Origin: Lachnospiraceae bacterium
GTDB taxonomy: Bacteria > Bacillota > Clostridia > Lachnospirales > Lachnospiraceae
Assembly (NCBI GenBank): GCA_030527645.1
Contig: JAUNAJ010000004.1
Coordinates: forward strand, 1-64,000
Reading direction: 5' to 3'
Length of the DNA stretch: 64,000 nucleotides
Part shown: in pieces, positions 9,549-15,506 of the stretch
Numbering within the stretch: position 1 is the stretch's first letter
How the letters are laid out: every line of letters begins with the position of its first letter
Position numbers and translations under genes: made by a program
Notes under the pieces: generated by a model
What the model was told of the DNA's origin: nothing
The model's database searches: none
Seen by the model: only the letters and a program-made list of their open reading frames with translations

Positions 9549-9601
9549 TCCGAAGCTCTAAAAGCGGCTCTGACCTTTGAAAAATAAGTTCTGTATGAGC
9601 G

Positions 9602-9649
9602 GAAAACTCCCTCCGGAATCAGCAGACTGCTGAATCCGGAGGGAGTTTT
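9602..9649. terminator. Bidirectional terminator between prs and the TPR gene
   Basis: AAAACTCCCTCCGG (9603-9616) pairs with CCGGAGGGAGTTTT (9636-9649), extended inward by a near-complementary AATCAGCAG/CTGCTGA segment. A-run on one side and T-run on the other allow use from both strands, fitting the convergent genes. Confidence 0.92.
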
Positions 9650-9665
9650 CTGTTCACAGGATACA

Positions 9666-9758: not shown

Positions 9759-10529
9759 CTACATATCGGTATTTCTATGATAGGTATCTGTCCAGTCTCT
9801 CAGAGCCTCGTCCAGATTCTCCGGCATATCCGGCATCTGGACAGCTGCGATTTCCCGGGCAAGCTTCACTCTGCTTTTTTCATCTACTCCGAATTCATCC
9901 AGCTTCTGTCTGTACTCCGACTCTCCGTCCTTTAAAAAAACTGAAAACAGATAGCTCTTCAGCACATGCAGGGTATGCAGATCCTCATAGGCACGCAGGA
10001 AGCACTCACAGGCCTCCTCCATCTGGAACAGCCTTGCGTATACACAGCCAAGATTATTGTAAACCGTACCCCGGAACTGGATACCGGTATTTCCCTGATC
10101 CTCACAAACCAATGCTTCCCGGTAGTATTTCAGCGCCCGTGTATATTTTTCATGCTGCATCAGGGTATCTGCTTTCTTCTTCAGACGAACTGCCAGCGGT
10201 TTCTTTTCCAACTCGTCCAGTTTCTGGTCAAAGGCTGTCAGCTCTCTGGAATTCATATAACAGATTTCTTTCAGAAGAGTCAATATAAAATCCCTGTCCG
10301 TATAGGGTCCCTGCAGAATATTCATCAGCTTTCCTGACAGCGTAACCATCTTAAGTTCACTTCTTACCCATTGGGCCAGTCCCTCACAAACGATAGACTG
10401 ATCCACCAGCGGAAGATTATTGCAGATAAAATAACCAAGCTCCTCTGCGGAATAAATATTCAAACCGATATTTTCCAGATACCAGGGTTCGGAAGCCCTT
10501 GGTATCTGACATAAAATTGGAATTCCCAT
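9759..10529 (-). CDS. TPR-containing protein, third gene of an uncharacterised operon
   Basis: A 256-residue protein that I do not recognise as a named family. The centre (about residues 133-195) carries tetratricopeptide-like helical pairs, for example KADTLMQHEKYTRALKYYRE followed by a segment with YNNLGCVYARL, usually protein-binding scaffolds. The N-terminal 110 residues are unlike known domains and hydrophobic patches are modest; there is no signal peptide or membrane segment, so it is probably cytoplasmic. Its ATG overlaps the stop of the Hsp70-like gene (TGATG at 10527-10531), so the two are translated together. Last gene of the operon, ending before the shared terminator. TPR proteins commonly act as co-chaperones of Hsp70, which makes a partner role to the neighbouring Hsp70-like protein a reasonable guess. 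Confidence 0.7.
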   Translation of the reverse strand: MGIPILCQIPRASEPWYLENIGLNIYSAEELGYFICNNLPLVDQSIVCEGLAQWVRSELKMVTLSGKLMNILQGPYTDRDFILTLLKEICYMNSRELTAFDQKLDELEKKPLAVRLKKKADTLMQHEKYTRALKYYREALVCEDQGNTGIQFRGTVYNNLGCVYARLFQMEEACECFLRAYEDLHTLHVLKSYLFSVFLKDGESEYRQKLDEFGVDEKSRVKLAREIAAVQMPDMPENLDEALRDWTDTYHRNTDM

Positions 10530-11779
10530 CAGTTCTGATCCTCCATCACCTCATTCCAGATTTTTCCGCTGGCAGGAAACATCTCTCCGAAACCAAGGTC
10601 CTCTGCTGTGATCCTGCATTTTCCTGCTGCCTCATACTCCATATGGACTTTTAGTCTGGTAGTTCCGGCAGGACGACTGGGGAGCCCCGGAAGAGGCATC
10701 ACCAGTTTCTTCCGGCTCTTTTCATTCATTCGGCTCACAAGAAATGTGAGTTCCTCACCCTGATCAAGAAGTATTTCGAAATCTGCAGCTGTCTCGTACC
10801 AGTTCACCCCGGCAGAGATCAGCGGATATACAGCTGCAATCCCCTGCACCATCAGCTCCATAGAGACATTATGACGAACCAGATCGCTGCCCACATAGAG
10901 GAAACTCTTCAGATGTCCCGGCTCCGTCTTTTCTCTGGCCGACAGCGCTGCCCCCTTCGCATACAGATTATTTCCGCCGAATACTTTTCTGGCTCCCTTG
11001 CAGAGAAGACGGATGGATTCCTTTGCCCATCTCTGATCAAATTCTTCTCCCATCAGGAAGATCCCTGAATACAGGTCCTCCCCGAGACTTTCTCTGATAA
11101 AAGAAACCAGCATGCGGTCTTTCTGCTCATCATTTCCTTTCAGTGAAATGCTACCTCCGTCATTCACGTAGGCAGCCACAGGCTTTGTCCGGAAATTCAT
11201 CTCCAGACAGGAAAAGTGTACCTGTCCGTTCCGGAATTCAAAGAGCCCGGTTTTTCTTGCCCATACATCCTGACTCTGAAACAAAGTATGCACAAAAAAG
11301 CTCTCCTTATAATCCTGCAGAAAACCTCTGTTTCTGGGGATTCCCAGGACCTCATAGGCCTGACGGATGGCACGCACAAAAAATCTGGTGAGCTTCGGTA
11401 CCGTAATCACAATGCCTGCAACCTGAGAGGCGGGATTCTCCGCCCCTGCTGCTTCCAGTGTCTTTCTGAGAAAAACAGCCAGAAGGTCTGCACCTGCGTA
11501 TTCCTTCCCCTCGATCCATGCCGAAGTTCCGTCTGCGCAAAGATCATACAGCTGGTCAATGAGTATCCCGTTTTTCTTCTCAGCAAAGTACCTTGCTTCG
11601 ATTCCGTGATACCAGGAATGATCTGCGGGAACCAGACAAAGAAGCGTCGGAAAGGTCAGCTGATCTGATCCTGCTTTCACCGGTATGCTGACCGCATCCC
11701 CAAGGGATCTGTCGTAACAGCAGACCTGAGAACCGGATCTGTTCAGATCAATTCCAATTATCATACGTTTCACATCCAT
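10529..11779 (-). CDS. Degenerate Hsp70/actin-fold protein (possibly DUF5716)
   Basis: A 416-residue protein with recognisable traces of the Hsp70 ATPase fold. IIGIDLNRSGS (7-17) matches the DnaK phosphate-1 loop IIGIDLGTTNS, IVITVPK (123-129) matches the segment before the adenosine helix, and YAGADLLAVFLRKTLEAAG (94-112) matches the crossing helix. The phosphate-2 loop, normally DLGGGTFD, reads EFRNGQVHF (181-189), losing the Asp and most glycines; the later GG motif reads FLMGEEF (241-247). There is no Hsp70 substrate-binding domain; the C-terminal 100 residues look beta-rich. I infer weak or absent ATP hydrolysis. It sits between a giant helical protein and a TPR protein. From memory it may belong to the family catalogued as DUF5716; this is unverified. 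Confidence 0.7.
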   Translation of the reverse strand: MDVKRMIIGIDLNRSGSQVCCYDRSLGDAVSIPVKAGSDQLTFPTLLCLVPADHSWYHGIEARYFAEKKNGILIDQLYDLCADGTSAWIEGKEYAGADLLAVFLRKTLEAAGAENPASQVAGIVITVPKLTRFFVRAIRQAYEVLGIPRNRGFLQDYKESFFVHTLFQSQDVWARKTGLFEFRNGQVHFSCLEMNFRTKPVAAYVNDGGSISLKGNDEQKDRMLVSFIRESLGEDLYSGIFLMGEEFDQRWAKESIRLLCKGARKVFGGNNLYAKGAALSAREKTEPGHLKSFLYVGSDLVRHNVSMELMVQGIAAVYPLISAGVNWYETAADFEILLDQGEELTFLVSRMNEKSRKKLVMPLPGLPSRPAGTTRLKVHMEYEAAGKCRITAEDLGFGEMFPASGKIWNEVMEDQN

Positions 11780-11791
11780 AGTTCTCTCCCG

Positions 11792-14700
11792 TTACATAAT
11801 CCTGCAGAAATACTCCGTAAAGGCATCCTGCCATAAATAATCCTCTATTGCCGTATTCATTCTCTCCAGGCTGCCCGTTGCTCTGGCGGTCAGAATCCTG
11901 TTCAGAATTTTATACCGGCTCCCTCCGTCTGTATCCAGTTCGGTCAGAGCCAGCTTCCTCTCCCCTACCTTTAATTCCTCTTCTCCGTTCCTGTAGGTCA
12001 GATAATAGGTCAGAACTTCTCCGTAAAACAGAAGAAATTCCCGAGAGAAGATTCCCGGAATCATTTCCGGCAAAGGCTCTGACTTCCAGACCGGGGCTTC
12101 CTCCGCCTCCTCTCTGTGACCCAGGGCATAATGAATGATCACCCTTGTTCCGGGGAGAAAACGTTCCTCCACAAACAGCTTTTCCTCCAGCTGCAGAGGA
12201 CGGATCAGCTCTTTCGGAAGTCTTTTAAAGAAGGCAAAGGTAAGCTTTTTCTCTCTGCATAAAGTCAGGATTTTCTCCGCCTCTTTCAGCTGCTCACCTC
12301 CGAGAGACTCCTGTTTCGAATAATATTTCAGAAGTGCCAGCCGGCACAAAAGATTCAGTTCCCATCGATTTCCCAGTAATTTTTCCAGATACAGGAAGAT
12401 CAGATCCGGAATCTCTATGTCCTGATAGATCCATCCTCCTGAGACCCAGGTCAAAAAAGAAGTGATGACTGATTCCTGCCCTTGATTCAGTATATAGCTC
12501 TCCAGAATCAGTTCCGGCTCGGACGGCATCCGACCGGTCAGCACCGCCAGCACCAGTATCCTCTTTTCCAGTTTCAGGGGCTCCAGATGGAATCCCTTCA
12601 CCCTCTTCCATAATTCACAGAGATATTCTATAGAACCCATACTGAACTCCAGCAGATAGGTCAGCATGATCTCATCGTATTTCCCCTGTCGGAAGACATA
12701 TTCTGAGAGACAAAGAAGATCTTCATCCTCCTGAAATTCCATTTTCAGGATCATGCGGCTGGCCAGACGCAGCAGCAGGCTGTCCGGAATCCTCTCATAG
12801 CCGAATTCGGAAACCAGTTGAAATGCCCGCTCGTACAGACCCGCTTCAATCAGCAGAACAGCAGTACTTACCTTGTCAACGGCGGCATACTCCCGCATAT
12901 CTCCGGTAAGAACAGAAATCAGCAGCCGTTCATCCTCCAGATTGTCCATGTAAAAGTCCAGAAGCTTCTGACGGATCTTTCCGCGAAAGGAATCTGTAAA
13001 ATCTTCATTGGCCTCTGCCATTCTGCAGCAGGCCAGTATCCGCTGGCTTACCTTCAGCTGCCGGGACTTTTCTCCGCAGCAATACAGCTGAAGGCCTGTG
13101 TGCTCAACACCCAGCGCTATACAACGGGCGGCTATATCTCTGATCTCCATGAGCGGTCTGCAGGAATACTCCACTGTAGAGGCAAAACGGCGGCGTTTTT
13201 CGTCCTCAAAAAGAATACAGGCATCCTCACTGTAGAGATCCACATAGGCAGCTCCGTCTCTGCAGGGATATTTTCTTTCTGCTCTCAATGCATGATGGCA
13301 GACGATCACATAGCGGATGGAGGCGTCTTTCACTTCAACCTTATGACAGAACAGAACGTTTGTCAGTGCTGCTGCCGTTTCTACAGAATCCGGATGCTGC
13401 AGCAATGCCTGATAAAGTACAGCAAATTCCTCAGAAATCCTTCCCTTTTTCAGGGAAGCTTCCGCAAATGTACGGATTGCTGTCTGATAGTTCATATAGC
13501 AGGTTCGATCTTTGTCCTTATGCAGGAGAACGCTGGAATACAGAAGCGCCCGACGGCGCTCTCCCAGTGTATTATTGTAGGTGAAATACATGCGGATCTG
13601 TCGGGGGATCCTGTCCGCCATCTCTCTGGGAATAGTTTCCATATAGTACTCATAGAGTCTGGTGATGCGAAGCTCCTTTTCCACAGCCAGTGCATACCAG
13701 ACAAAGTACTCTTTTTTATAGGCCTGCCCCTTCATGATCTGCTTGCATATTGCCTCCAGAATGTCCACACTCTGATATTTTTTGTACCCGGATGCCAGAA
13801 GCTGATAGACAGGCTCAGAGAATTCCCTTATGCTGCCTGCAAGAAAAGTCATCCGTCTGTAAAGAGACTCTGACAGCTGTCCCCTCACCGCTGCAAATCG
13901 CAGAACCTGCAGATAAAAGGGTGTAAGTCTGCGGAGCAGACTCTCCTGCTCGTTCAACATCTTCCATGCTTTCAGATACAGAAACGGGCTGTTGCAGCCC
14001 TGCTCATAACACTGCTCAAGCTCGAACATGATTCTGGCTGACATATGCTCATAGGAGGGATCCTCCTGCAGCAGCAGATGCAGGTAGAGATACTGATCCG
14101 GCTCCAGTTCATGATTACGCCGAACCTTCATTAGAAAATTCTGTGTTTCCCGGCTCCGGATGCCGGCAAGCTTTGAAAGGTACAGGTACCAGGTCTCTTC
14201 CTCCTTTGATTTCAGTGTTCTGCTGCCCTTCTGAAACAGACCCAGCAGCATATTCATCCGCTGCAGATTGTCCTCTGAATAGCAAAGATAGGCATCGTAC
14301 AGGATTGCTGCAGAATTCTCCGGATCCAGGTTCTTCAGATCAGTCACAAGCTGTCTGCCTCTCTGCTGCCAGGTCCTGTAGTCGATTCGGCGCATCTGCA
14401 GATCCAGCATGTCTCTGGCAATAGCAGCCCGGATTCTGTTTTCCCGCAGACCCGCCACCTCTTTCAGTGCACCTGCAGATGCTTCGATTCGAAACTCCAG
14501 CTCCTGATATACGCTTTTCAGACGGATCGTCCCGTAGTTTCTGCCCTGATGCAGCCGTTCACGATTTACAATATACTCCAAACCGAAGACTTTTCCGATA
14601 AAGTCCTCTGATGTGATCACTCTTTTTTCCACCTGTAGAAAAGTGCCTGTCAGTTCTACCTCGATCCGCACGTAGCCCCAGTTATTCTTATAGATATACA

Positions 14701-15358
14701 GGGTATCCTTCTGGGAAGCATCCAGGTGATACACCTCTTTTTCCTGCTTATCAAGGCTGAACAGCACCGGTTTCTTTTTTTCGATCGAAATCAGAAATTC
14801 CTCCATATGCTGATAGGTAACGGGAGCATGGGAAAGCCCTTTATACAGAGGGAGAAAGGCTCTGTTTTTGCCTCGAAGAAGACCTGCAAAGGAATTGCTC
14901 GCAAACAGACGGAAGCCCTCCCGATAGCTCTTCATACAGAGTCTGGTAAAATCCTCCAGTGACCGGATGGCTCCCTCCGATGCCTGTACCGTCTCGGCAA
15001 TGATCTCTGCCTTTACCGGTATCCTTTTCTCAGACAGATTACTGCTGATCACAATGGTTCCGCTGATCAGATCCCCCTCTTTCAATCCTTTTGTATCCAC
15101 ACCAAACAGGATGGTGCAGGAATTTCCTGAAATGCTGTTGCCTGCCAGCAGGATCCTGTGATTGTCTGAAGTAACCAGTCCTCTCATTCTTGACCCGTCT
15201 GACGTCCCCAGGCTGACAGATCCCTTGTATTTTTTTCCTTCCTGTATCTGAAGCCGCAGCTCCGAAACCGAAGTGATCAGCTCCGGACGGCTCATTTCGT
15301 ATGTTCCGGATAGCAATTCTTCCATTCTGTTATTCACACCGCACACCCTGCCCCTCAT
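11792..15358 (-). CDS. Giant helical-repeat protein (possibly DUF5717), first gene of an uncharacterised operon
   Basis: An 1188-residue protein. The first 130 residues are beta-rich and Ig-like (SELRLQIQEGKKYKGSVSL, then GDLISGTIVISSNLSEKRIP), and a second beta region follows near 205-300. From about 300 to the end it is almost entirely amphipathic helices with TPR/HEAT character, many Tyr-Leu pairs, and no obvious catalytic motif, signal peptide or membrane span. Several in-frame starts exist (ATG 15358, GTG 15337, ATG 15325) and none has an ideally spaced ribosome site; AAAGGAGGG at 15382-15390 is about 24 bases before the first, so the N-terminus is uncertain. Twelve bases separate it from the Hsp70-like gene. 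From memory it resembles the family DUF5717; function unknown. Confidence 0.7.
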   Translation of the reverse strand: MRGRVCGVNNRMEELLSGTYEMSRPELITSVSELRLQIQEGKKYKGSVSLGTSDGSRMRGLVTSDNHRILLAGNSISGNSCTILFGVDTKGLKEGDLISGTIVISSNLSEKRIPVKAEIIAETVQASEGAIRSLEDFTRLCMKSYREGFRLFASNSFAGLLRGKNRAFLPLYKGLSHAPVTYQHMEEFLISIEKKKPVLFSLDKQEKEVYHLDASQKDTLYIYKNNWGYVRIEVELTGTFLQVEKRVITSEDFIGKVFGLEYIVNRERLHQGRNYGTIRLKSVYQELEFRIEASAGALKEVAGLRENRIRAAIARDMLDLQMRRIDYRTWQQRGRQLVTDLKNLDPENSAAILYDAYLCYSEDNLQRMNMLLGLFQKGSRTLKSKEEETWYLYLSKLAGIRSRETQNFLMKVRRNHELEPDQYLYLHLLLQEDPSYEHMSARIMFELEQCYEQGCNSPFLYLKAWKMLNEQESLLRRLTPFYLQVLRFAAVRGQLSESLYRRMTFLAGSIREFSEPVYQLLASGYKKYQSVDILEAICKQIMKGQAYKKEYFVWYALAVEKELRITRLYEYYMETIPREMADRIPRQIRMYFTYNNTLGERRRALLYSSVLLHKDKDRTCYMNYQTAIRTFAEASLKKGRISEEFAVLYQALLQHPDSVETAAALTNVLFCHKVEVKDASIRYVIVCHHALRAERKYPCRDGAAYVDLYSEDACILFEDEKRRRFASTVEYSCRPLMEIRDIAARCIALGVEHTGLQLYCCGEKSRQLKVSQRILACCRMAEANEDFTDSFRGKIRQKLLDFYMDNLEDERLLISVLTGDMREYAAVDKVSTAVLLIEAGLYERAFQLVSEFGYERIPDSLLLRLASRMILKMEFQEDEDLLCLSEYVFRQGKYDEIMLTYLLEFSMGSIEYLCELWKRVKGFHLEPLKLEKRILVLAVLTGRMPSEPELILESYILNQGQESVITSFLTWVSGGWIYQDIEIPDLIFLYLEKLLGNRWELNLLCRLALLKYYSKQESLGGEQLKEAEKILTLCREKKLTFAFFKRLPKELIRPLQLEEKLFVEERFLPGTRVIIHYALGHREEAEEAPVWKSEPLPEMIPGIFSREFLLFYGEVLTYYLTYRNGEEELKVGERKLALTELDTDGGSRYKILNRILTARATGSLERMNTAIEDYLWQDAFTEYFCRIM

Positions 15359-15446: not shown

Positions 15447-15475
15447 ATTATACACTAACCCAAAAGAGGAGACAA
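15447..15475 (-). promoter_or_regulatory. Promoter of the DUF5717-like operon
   Basis: On the minus strand TTGTCT (15470-15475) and TATAAT (15447-15452) are separated by 17 bases. The -35 box lies inside the arm of the dapB terminator hairpin. Confidence 0.65.
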
Positions 15476-15506
15476 GGTTCCGTGCTTCGGAACCTTGTCT
15501 CCTCTT
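15462..15506 (-). terminator. Terminator of dapA-dapB, 19-bp perfect hairpin
   Basis: AAGAGGAGACAAGGTTCCG (15464-15482) and its exact complement (15488-15506) enclose a 5-base loop. On the minus strand it is followed by TTTT. It lies about 105 bases after dapB. The stem is unusually long and of the GGAGACAAGG type seen in palindromic repeats. Confidence 0.8.

Follow-up and report, generated by a model that had tools for sequence, protein, structure and literature searches.

Described assemblies that come close to the locus considered here include 'theme 2' of the GTPase-centric GAP1-N2 systems, in which an HSP70 is combined with GrpE, an HSP70 without the substrate-binding domain (SBD) and FNIII-DnaJ/TPR proteins in Firmicutes among others (eLife 2020, PMC7159879), and atypical Hsp70s such as Ssz1 of the ribosome-associated complex (PMC7083937, PMC9197937) and Hsp110/Sse1, which are kept as partners or scaffolds. 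In searches by gene content only PMC7159879 proved relevant, and no relevant paper was found on the function of the Pfam families DUF5716 or DUF5717. Both families occur in a three-gene locus, called here the trio, within a stretch of 64,000 nucleotides (the window) from a Lachnospiraceae bacterium (assembly GCA_030527645.1, contig JAUNAJ010000004.1, positions 1 to 64,000). It is suggested here that the trio encodes a cytosolic scaffold complex which arose by reduction from a dedicated Hsp70 chaperone machine; we would give this reading a probability of roughly 60%. The three genes are as follows:

11792-15358, minus strand, DUF5717 gene, open reading frame of 1188 amino acids
10529-11779, minus strand, DUF5716 gene, open reading frame of 416 amino acids
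9759-10529, minus strand, TPR protein gene, open reading frame of 256 amino acids

Transcription runs from DUF5717 through DUF5716 to the TPR gene. The preliminary description of the locus had the genes overlapping or nearly touching, and the sequence bears this out: 12 bases (11780-11791) separate DUF5717 from DUF5716, and at the next junction, which reads ...CTGATGGG, the TGA stop and the ATG start share one base (TGATG). Both halves of the Pfam DUF5717 profile match the window protein above the cut-off of 25, and in order (PF18984, DUF5717_N, E 3e-236, 786.8 bits; PF18983, the C-terminal family, E 1e-78, 265.1 bits), while PF18980 (DUF5716_C) matches the second protein with E 8e-92 and 307.8 bits (cut-off 34.7) and TPR_2 the third with E 2e-8.

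The evidence for reduction comes from other families of the order, where DUF5716 and DUF5717 matches lie several kilobases apart within a cluster of eight genes:

g1, Ig-like protein, about 390 amino acids
g2, helical protein, about 900 amino acids, matching the second part of DUF5717_N and DUF5717 C
g3, Hsp70, 558 amino acids
g4, protein with a C-terminal GrpE domain (E 9e-14), about 620 amino acids
g5, degenerate Hsp70, about 515 amino acids
g6, Hsp70, 546 amino acids
g7, Hsp70 with a C-terminal vWA domain (E 8e-10), 692 amino acids
g8, TPR protein, 387 amino acids

The Pfam HSP70 profile matches g3, g6 and g7 with E-values from 1e-58 to 2e-90. This gene order is kept on one strand, with median gaps of 3-32 bases, in 59/59 non-redundant loci that hold at least three of the eight genes; the carriers include, besides many metagenome-assembled genomes, the isolate Defluviitalea phaphyphila Alg1. 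A profile of g4 recovered the gene from many genomes of other families, but in Lachnospiraceae it matched nothing better than a short frame about as long as an ordinary GrpE. A search of the window genome for Hsp70s returned one DnaK and two weak matches in 345-codon frames, a length like that of MreB, with no further Hsp70 and no g4. Since g3, g4, g6 and g7 are all missing from this genome, the trio can be regarded as a reduced derivative and not as the full system.

The relationship of the single genes is consistent with this. A tree built from 266 Hsp70-type sequences places DUF5716 as a single clade (support 0.999), nested in g5 (1.0) and sister to the g5 of one particular locus, L037 (1.0), and DUF5716 thus descends from the degenerate Hsp70 of the cluster. 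As the DUF5717_N and DUF5717 profiles match g1 and g2 in order, DUF5717 is a fusion of these two ancestral genes, and the TPR protein is the ancestral g8 in shortened form. The L037 locus has all eight genes, and its g5 (DUF5716_C E 3e-58) and g1/g2 are the closest to DUF5716 and DUF5717, which marks it as an intermediate between the eight-gene and the three-gene forms. Its g5 is degenerate inside a full cluster, so that the pseudo-enzyme arose before the motors were lost. In another family the cluster was independently reduced to g1, g2 and g5, the TPR gene being lost as well (L133:5816-10915), and for this reason g1, g2 and g5 are likely to be the functional core.

That DUF5716 has an actin/Hsp70 fold, as the preliminary description proposed, is barely supported by sequence searches, in which the Pfam HSP70 profile gave only E 0.3 and the best sequences in the PDB, DnaK and BiP, E 0.09 or worse. 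It is borne out by the AlphaFold (AF2) model, whose predicted local distance difference test score (pLDDT) is 94.9; the same description would have been called into question if no Hsp70 fold were predicted, and the fold is predicted with very high confidence. The model matches DnaK in Foldseek with E 2e-19 and probability 1.00, and in VIA-align it matches DnaK 7kru with Z 21.5 over 378 residues. It consists of a nucleotide-binding domain of actin-like fold followed by an SBD-beta sandwich, and the SBD-alpha lid is missing, the last strand (407-413) lying at the end of the 416 residues. Intact motifs for phosphate-1, phosphate-2 and adenosine are retained by g3, g6 and g7. These motifs are largely gone from g5, and DUF5716 has lost them, with GIDLNRSGSQVC, GLFEFRNGQVHFSC and GIFLMGEEFDQR in the places of GIDLGTTNSCVA, MVYDLGGGTFDVSI and KVLLVGGSTRIP of DnaK. 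A canonical Hsp70 chaperone would have these three ATP-site motifs and a lid, and DUF5716 has neither. The loss of the motifs for using ATP suggests a chaperone turned structural scaffold. A different motif, of the D-x-G-F-G type, is present in 59/59 g6, 66/70 g5 and 24/25 DUF5716 sequences, in 2/49 of g7 and 0/62 of g3, and is lacking in DnaK; located where the lid would start, it is a candidate docking site.

11720-11755, minus strand, degenerate phosphate-1 motif GIDLNRSGSQVC (DnaK GIDLGTTNSCVA), from the alignment of 266 Hsp70-type sequences
10586-10600, minus strand, C-terminal D-x-G-F-G motif, conserved across DUF5716, g5 and g6

The same model bears on the possibility that DUF5716 is a co-chaperone of DnaK, like Hsp110 or Ssz1, acting in nucleotide exchange or as a partner at the nascent chain, with DUF5717 and the TPR protein delivering clients. 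Atypical Hsp70s with such roles rank among its closest structural matches (Sse1, Z 20.7-20.8; Ssz1, Z 20.1-20.4), although all Hsp70s score alike here, with Z differences of about 1. The window genome retains DnaK and has lost all of the dedicated partner Hsp70s. However, Ssz1 and Hsp110 bind ATP, whereas all three ATP-binding motifs are degenerate in DUF5716, and the cluster genes were found to encode no J-domain. We consider this explanation unlikely, if the strongest of the alternatives to a nucleotide-independent scaffold.

DUF5717 would provide the framework of such a scaffold. Its AF2 model has a pLDDT of 86 and a predicted template modelling score (pTM) of 0.60, and it agrees with the earlier label of an Ig-like plus helical-repeat protein. 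The parts of the model are as follows, all on the minus strand:

14966-15280, minus strand, Ig-like beta-sandwich 1, residues 27-131, from the strands of the AF2 model
14474-14761, minus strand, Ig-like beta-sandwich 2, residues 200-295, AF2 model
13352-14464, minus strand, first part of the alpha-solenoid, residues 299-669, AF2 model
13154-13348, minus strand, beta-rich insert in the solenoid, residues 671-735, AF2 model
12194-13141, minus strand, second part of the alpha-solenoid, residues 740-1055, AF2 model
11948-12181, minus strand, C-terminal beta domain, residues 1060-1137, AF2 model

Sandwich 1 is matched in Foldseek by ciliary central-pair proteins and the SPD-2 domain of CEP192 (E 6e-7 to 3e-5), and the solenoid by generic TPR solenoids such as those of Ctr9, Ski3 and Naa15; judged on the model, these resemblances are a likeness of fold only. 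NCBIfam held nothing useful for either DUF5717 or DUF5716.

The TPR protein has an N-terminal domain that is conserved in the family alignment. In one genome of the family it is fused to DUF5716 in a protein of 684 residues (L142:8834-10888), with DUF5716 at residues 1-387 (E 1e-45) and the TPR protein at residues 422-683 (E 2e-60), and this natural fusion supports an interaction between the two. Within the genus, all three genes show 66-71% identity and a ratio of non-synonymous to synonymous substitution rates (dN/dS) of 0.13-0.15; they are constrained, yet evolve about three times faster than the neighbouring housekeeping genes.

No transmembrane or signal-like segment was found in any of the three proteins. 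A link to the membrane is suggested by two accessory genes, one for each form of the cluster:

L038:15328-16650, L050:12645-13940 and 15 others, g0, unannotated membrane gene
L045:2937-4130, L046:9812-10990 and relatives, c3, membrane gene of about 398 amino acids

The g0 gene lies directly upstream of the eight-gene cluster in 17 loci, is homologous among them, and encodes three transmembrane segments and, as judged by eye, a C-terminal coiled coil. The c3 protein has two transmembrane segments between two charged helical regions and matches no Pfam family above the cut-off. Its gene directly follows the TPR gene in 14/26 Lachnospiraceae loci and is present in 26/60 Lachnospiraceae genomes, or about 40% of the family; in 23 of these it shares contig and strand with the DUF5717_N match and lies some 3 kb downstream of it. 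There is no sign of homology between c3 and g0 (hhalign probability 1%).

Coiled-coil membrane partners of this kind, the actin/Hsp70 superfamily fold of DUF5716, and Ig-like domains like those of the ciliary central pair, an apparatus in which an Hsp70 is present as well (7sqc, 7n6g), could together point to a cytoskeleton-like structure in which DUF5716 would form polymers or decorate the membrane and DUF5717 would be an accessory lattice protein. The fold of DUF5716 is, however, that of an Hsp70 with SBD-beta and not of MreB or FtsA, and its nucleotide motifs are lost, though actin-type filaments require nucleotide. Such a structure is in our opinion quite improbable, and a membrane-tethered scaffold that does without nucleotide is preferred.

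The distribution of the trio was followed at several levels. In an order-wide sample of 295 genomes the DUF5716_C profile matched in 142 and the DUF5717_N profile in 145, and both sets include every Lachnospiraceae genome that was listed. A separate sample of 60 Lachnospiraceae genomes has DUF5717 in 58 (46/47 among those of good quality), and in a sample of 398 genomes from the whole phylum the five positives for DUF5717 are all Lachnospiraceae, with none (0/393) outside the family. The preliminary description, in which the three genes form one functional unit, would have lost ground if homologues were usually found apart; they are contiguous in 26/26 Lachnospiraceae loci examined, and the gaps between them have medians of 15 and 9 bases (in one of these, L053, DUF5716 was located by a profile match, its frame being overlapped by a spurious open reading frame). 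Vertical inheritance in the family, also proposed there, is supported, and it is near-universal. As a separate observation, one genome assigned to another family has the three-gene form on a short contig (L047, G167 contig C40), which may reflect either transfer or contamination, the latter put at 5% for that assembly.

An origin in phages or other mobile elements was considered and rejected. The plasmid search gave no match to the trio. Five records labelled as phage do match it, and the one that was examined (L144, MT835486.1:5332-12180, 'Bacteriophage sp.', faeces) is evidently a bacterial contig, because it holds the whole trio, c3 and neighbours of chromosomal type. These results also weigh against the possibility that the locus is a defence system, one of the biological-conflict systems in the GAP1-N2 GTPase class, with a triggerable complex of HSP70, GrpE, SBD-less HSP70 and FNIII-TPR proteins (PMC7159879). 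The ancestral HSP70s, GrpE, vWA domain and beta-sandwich and helical-repeat proteins do come close to 'theme 2', but neither the trio nor the eight-gene cluster encodes a GTPase, no PADLOC family matches at E up to 1, and no effector recurs among 65 flanking genes, for which the 25 commonest families were listed. A single copy, near-universal in the family and in fixed order, likewise speaks against a defence role, which we regard as the least probable of the explanations considered.

A role in motility or sporulation was also rejected. Flagellin is present in 33 and SpoIVA in 42 of the 60 Lachnospiraceae genomes, so that 27/60 have no flagellin and 18/60 no SpoIVA, and neither was found in the window genome. 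Since DUF5717 is nearly universal in the same sample, the client of the trio is unlikely to come from either process.

In the window the trio is flanked by housekeeping genes, with dapB and dapA on one side and a PRPP-synthetase-like gene, a DnaC-like ATPase and a DnaB_2 replication gene on the other. The features at its borders are these:

9601-9651, no strand assigned, hairpin with T tails on both strands, -40.9 kcal/mol
15464-15506, minus strand, hairpin on the dapB side, -35 kcal/mol
15447-15475, minus strand, promoter-like site TTGTCT-17-TATAAT, 10/12 consensus matches, a consensus match only

The first hairpin, downstream of the trio, is a probable bidirectional terminator, and the second probably terminates the dapB transcript and parts the trio from dapB. 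The promoter-like site sits between dapB and DUF5717, upstream of the trio, and the scan that found it gave no more sites than shuffled sequences; a common promoter and terminator for the three genes are plausible. Translation of DUF5717 may start at the GTG at 15337 instead of the ATG at 15358, as the homologue in the same genus begins at the equivalent MNNRMDE. A divergent class I/II aminotransferase gene with a CobD/HisC-like N-terminus was noted upstream of both three-gene and eight-gene loci, and appears to be a synteny trace of the common descent of the two forms:

L034:14568-15716, L035:16579-17649, L129:16131-17249 and L141:12005-13120, divergent aminotransferase gene

The trio is thus probably a cytosolic, membrane-tethered, nucleotide-independent pseudo-Hsp70 scaffold. 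In the ancestral machine the platform and the pseudo-Hsp70 would have been a fixed base near the membrane, and on it would have cycled the three Hsp70s powered by ATP, the GrpE dedicated to them and a client binder of the vWA type. In the reduced form the base would be kept, as a nucleotide-independent holdase or assembly scaffold that perhaps shares the housekeeping DnaK/GrpE. The Ig-like domains and solenoid of DUF5717 could form a large platform, DUF5716 could stay permanently docked there without going through a nucleotide cycle, and the TPR protein may cap DUF5716 or recruit partners through it. Tethering to the membrane, a site that we infer, would apply in lineages with the downstream coiled-coil gene c3 and its two transmembrane segments, and the client would not be specific to flagella or spores. 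Of the earlier claims, that of a chaperone-like or scaffold assembly remains the best reading, with the additions that it would be reduced from eight genes and that its Hsp70-like member has no ATPase motifs.

Some points weigh against this interpretation. The loss of motifs in DUF5716 is no proof of lost ATP binding, the overall shape of the DUF5717 model is uncertain (pTM 0.60), the membrane link is by way of accessory genes and the window genome has no c3, and the complex and its client are themselves things that we infer. More tentative still, and in our estimate slightly short of an even chance, is the wider proposal of a previously undescribed Hsp70 machine that is tethered to the membrane and confined to the order. 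It would have a GrpE of its own and three active Hsp70s, one of them with a vWA domain for client binding, and its Ig/solenoid platform would carry a pseudo-Hsp70; having shed all its ATPases twice independently, it would live on in the family as a nucleotide-free pseudo-Hsp70 scaffold whose core function is conserved. Such loss of motors with a retained pseudo-enzyme is known mainly from eukaryotic atypical Hsp70s, and the present case would be one of a chaperone machine that lost its motors and kept pseudo-enzyme and scaffold. Two Pfam families of unknown function, nearly universal in a common gut family, would gain an ancestry and a testable role, and the eight-gene parent, with its dedicated GrpE and Hsp70-vWA fusion, is a chaperone system not described so far; the isolate Defluviitalea phaphyphila could serve for its reconstitution.

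When the locus is compared with known systems, it shares with GAP1-N2 'theme 2' the multi-gene clusters with HSP70, GrpE, a partial Hsp70-like protein and beta-sandwich and TPR-type proteins. The eight-gene cluster has HSP70, GrpE and a DUF5717-type protein, and neither an HSP70 nor a GrpE gene is present at the window locus. The differences lie in the lack of a GTPase, which extends to the listed flanking families, in a cluster with three intact Hsp70 paralogues, a degenerate one and an Hsp70-vWA fusion, in a fixed gene order, in the restriction to one taxonomic order and in the near-universal presence in Lachnospiraceae. The Hsp70 fold and SBD-beta of DUF5716, and the GrpE domain of g4, recall the canonical DnaK/GrpE system; in contrast to that system, DUF5716 is without ATPase motifs and lid, neither the trio nor the eight-gene cluster has a J-domain gene, and the locus is separate in a genome that keeps DnaK. 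The ciliary central-pair apparatus is also an Ig-like and helical-repeat scaffold with a resident Hsp70, but it is eukaryotic and the matches are of fold only, with no homology claimed; TM-scores against its proteins are low because the domains alone match. Ssz1 and Hsp110/Sse1 share the fold with DUF5716, though they are eukaryotic and paired with an Hsp40 or Hsp70, and the likeness is at the level of fold. By analogy, the functionally closest likeness would nevertheless be to atypical Hsp70s such as Ssz1, which are partners rather than motors. With no GTPase, a fixed, single-copy and near-universal pattern, and this likeness to Ssz1, the locus is therefore best placed as an Hsp70-derived assembly that stands apart from the systems so far named.

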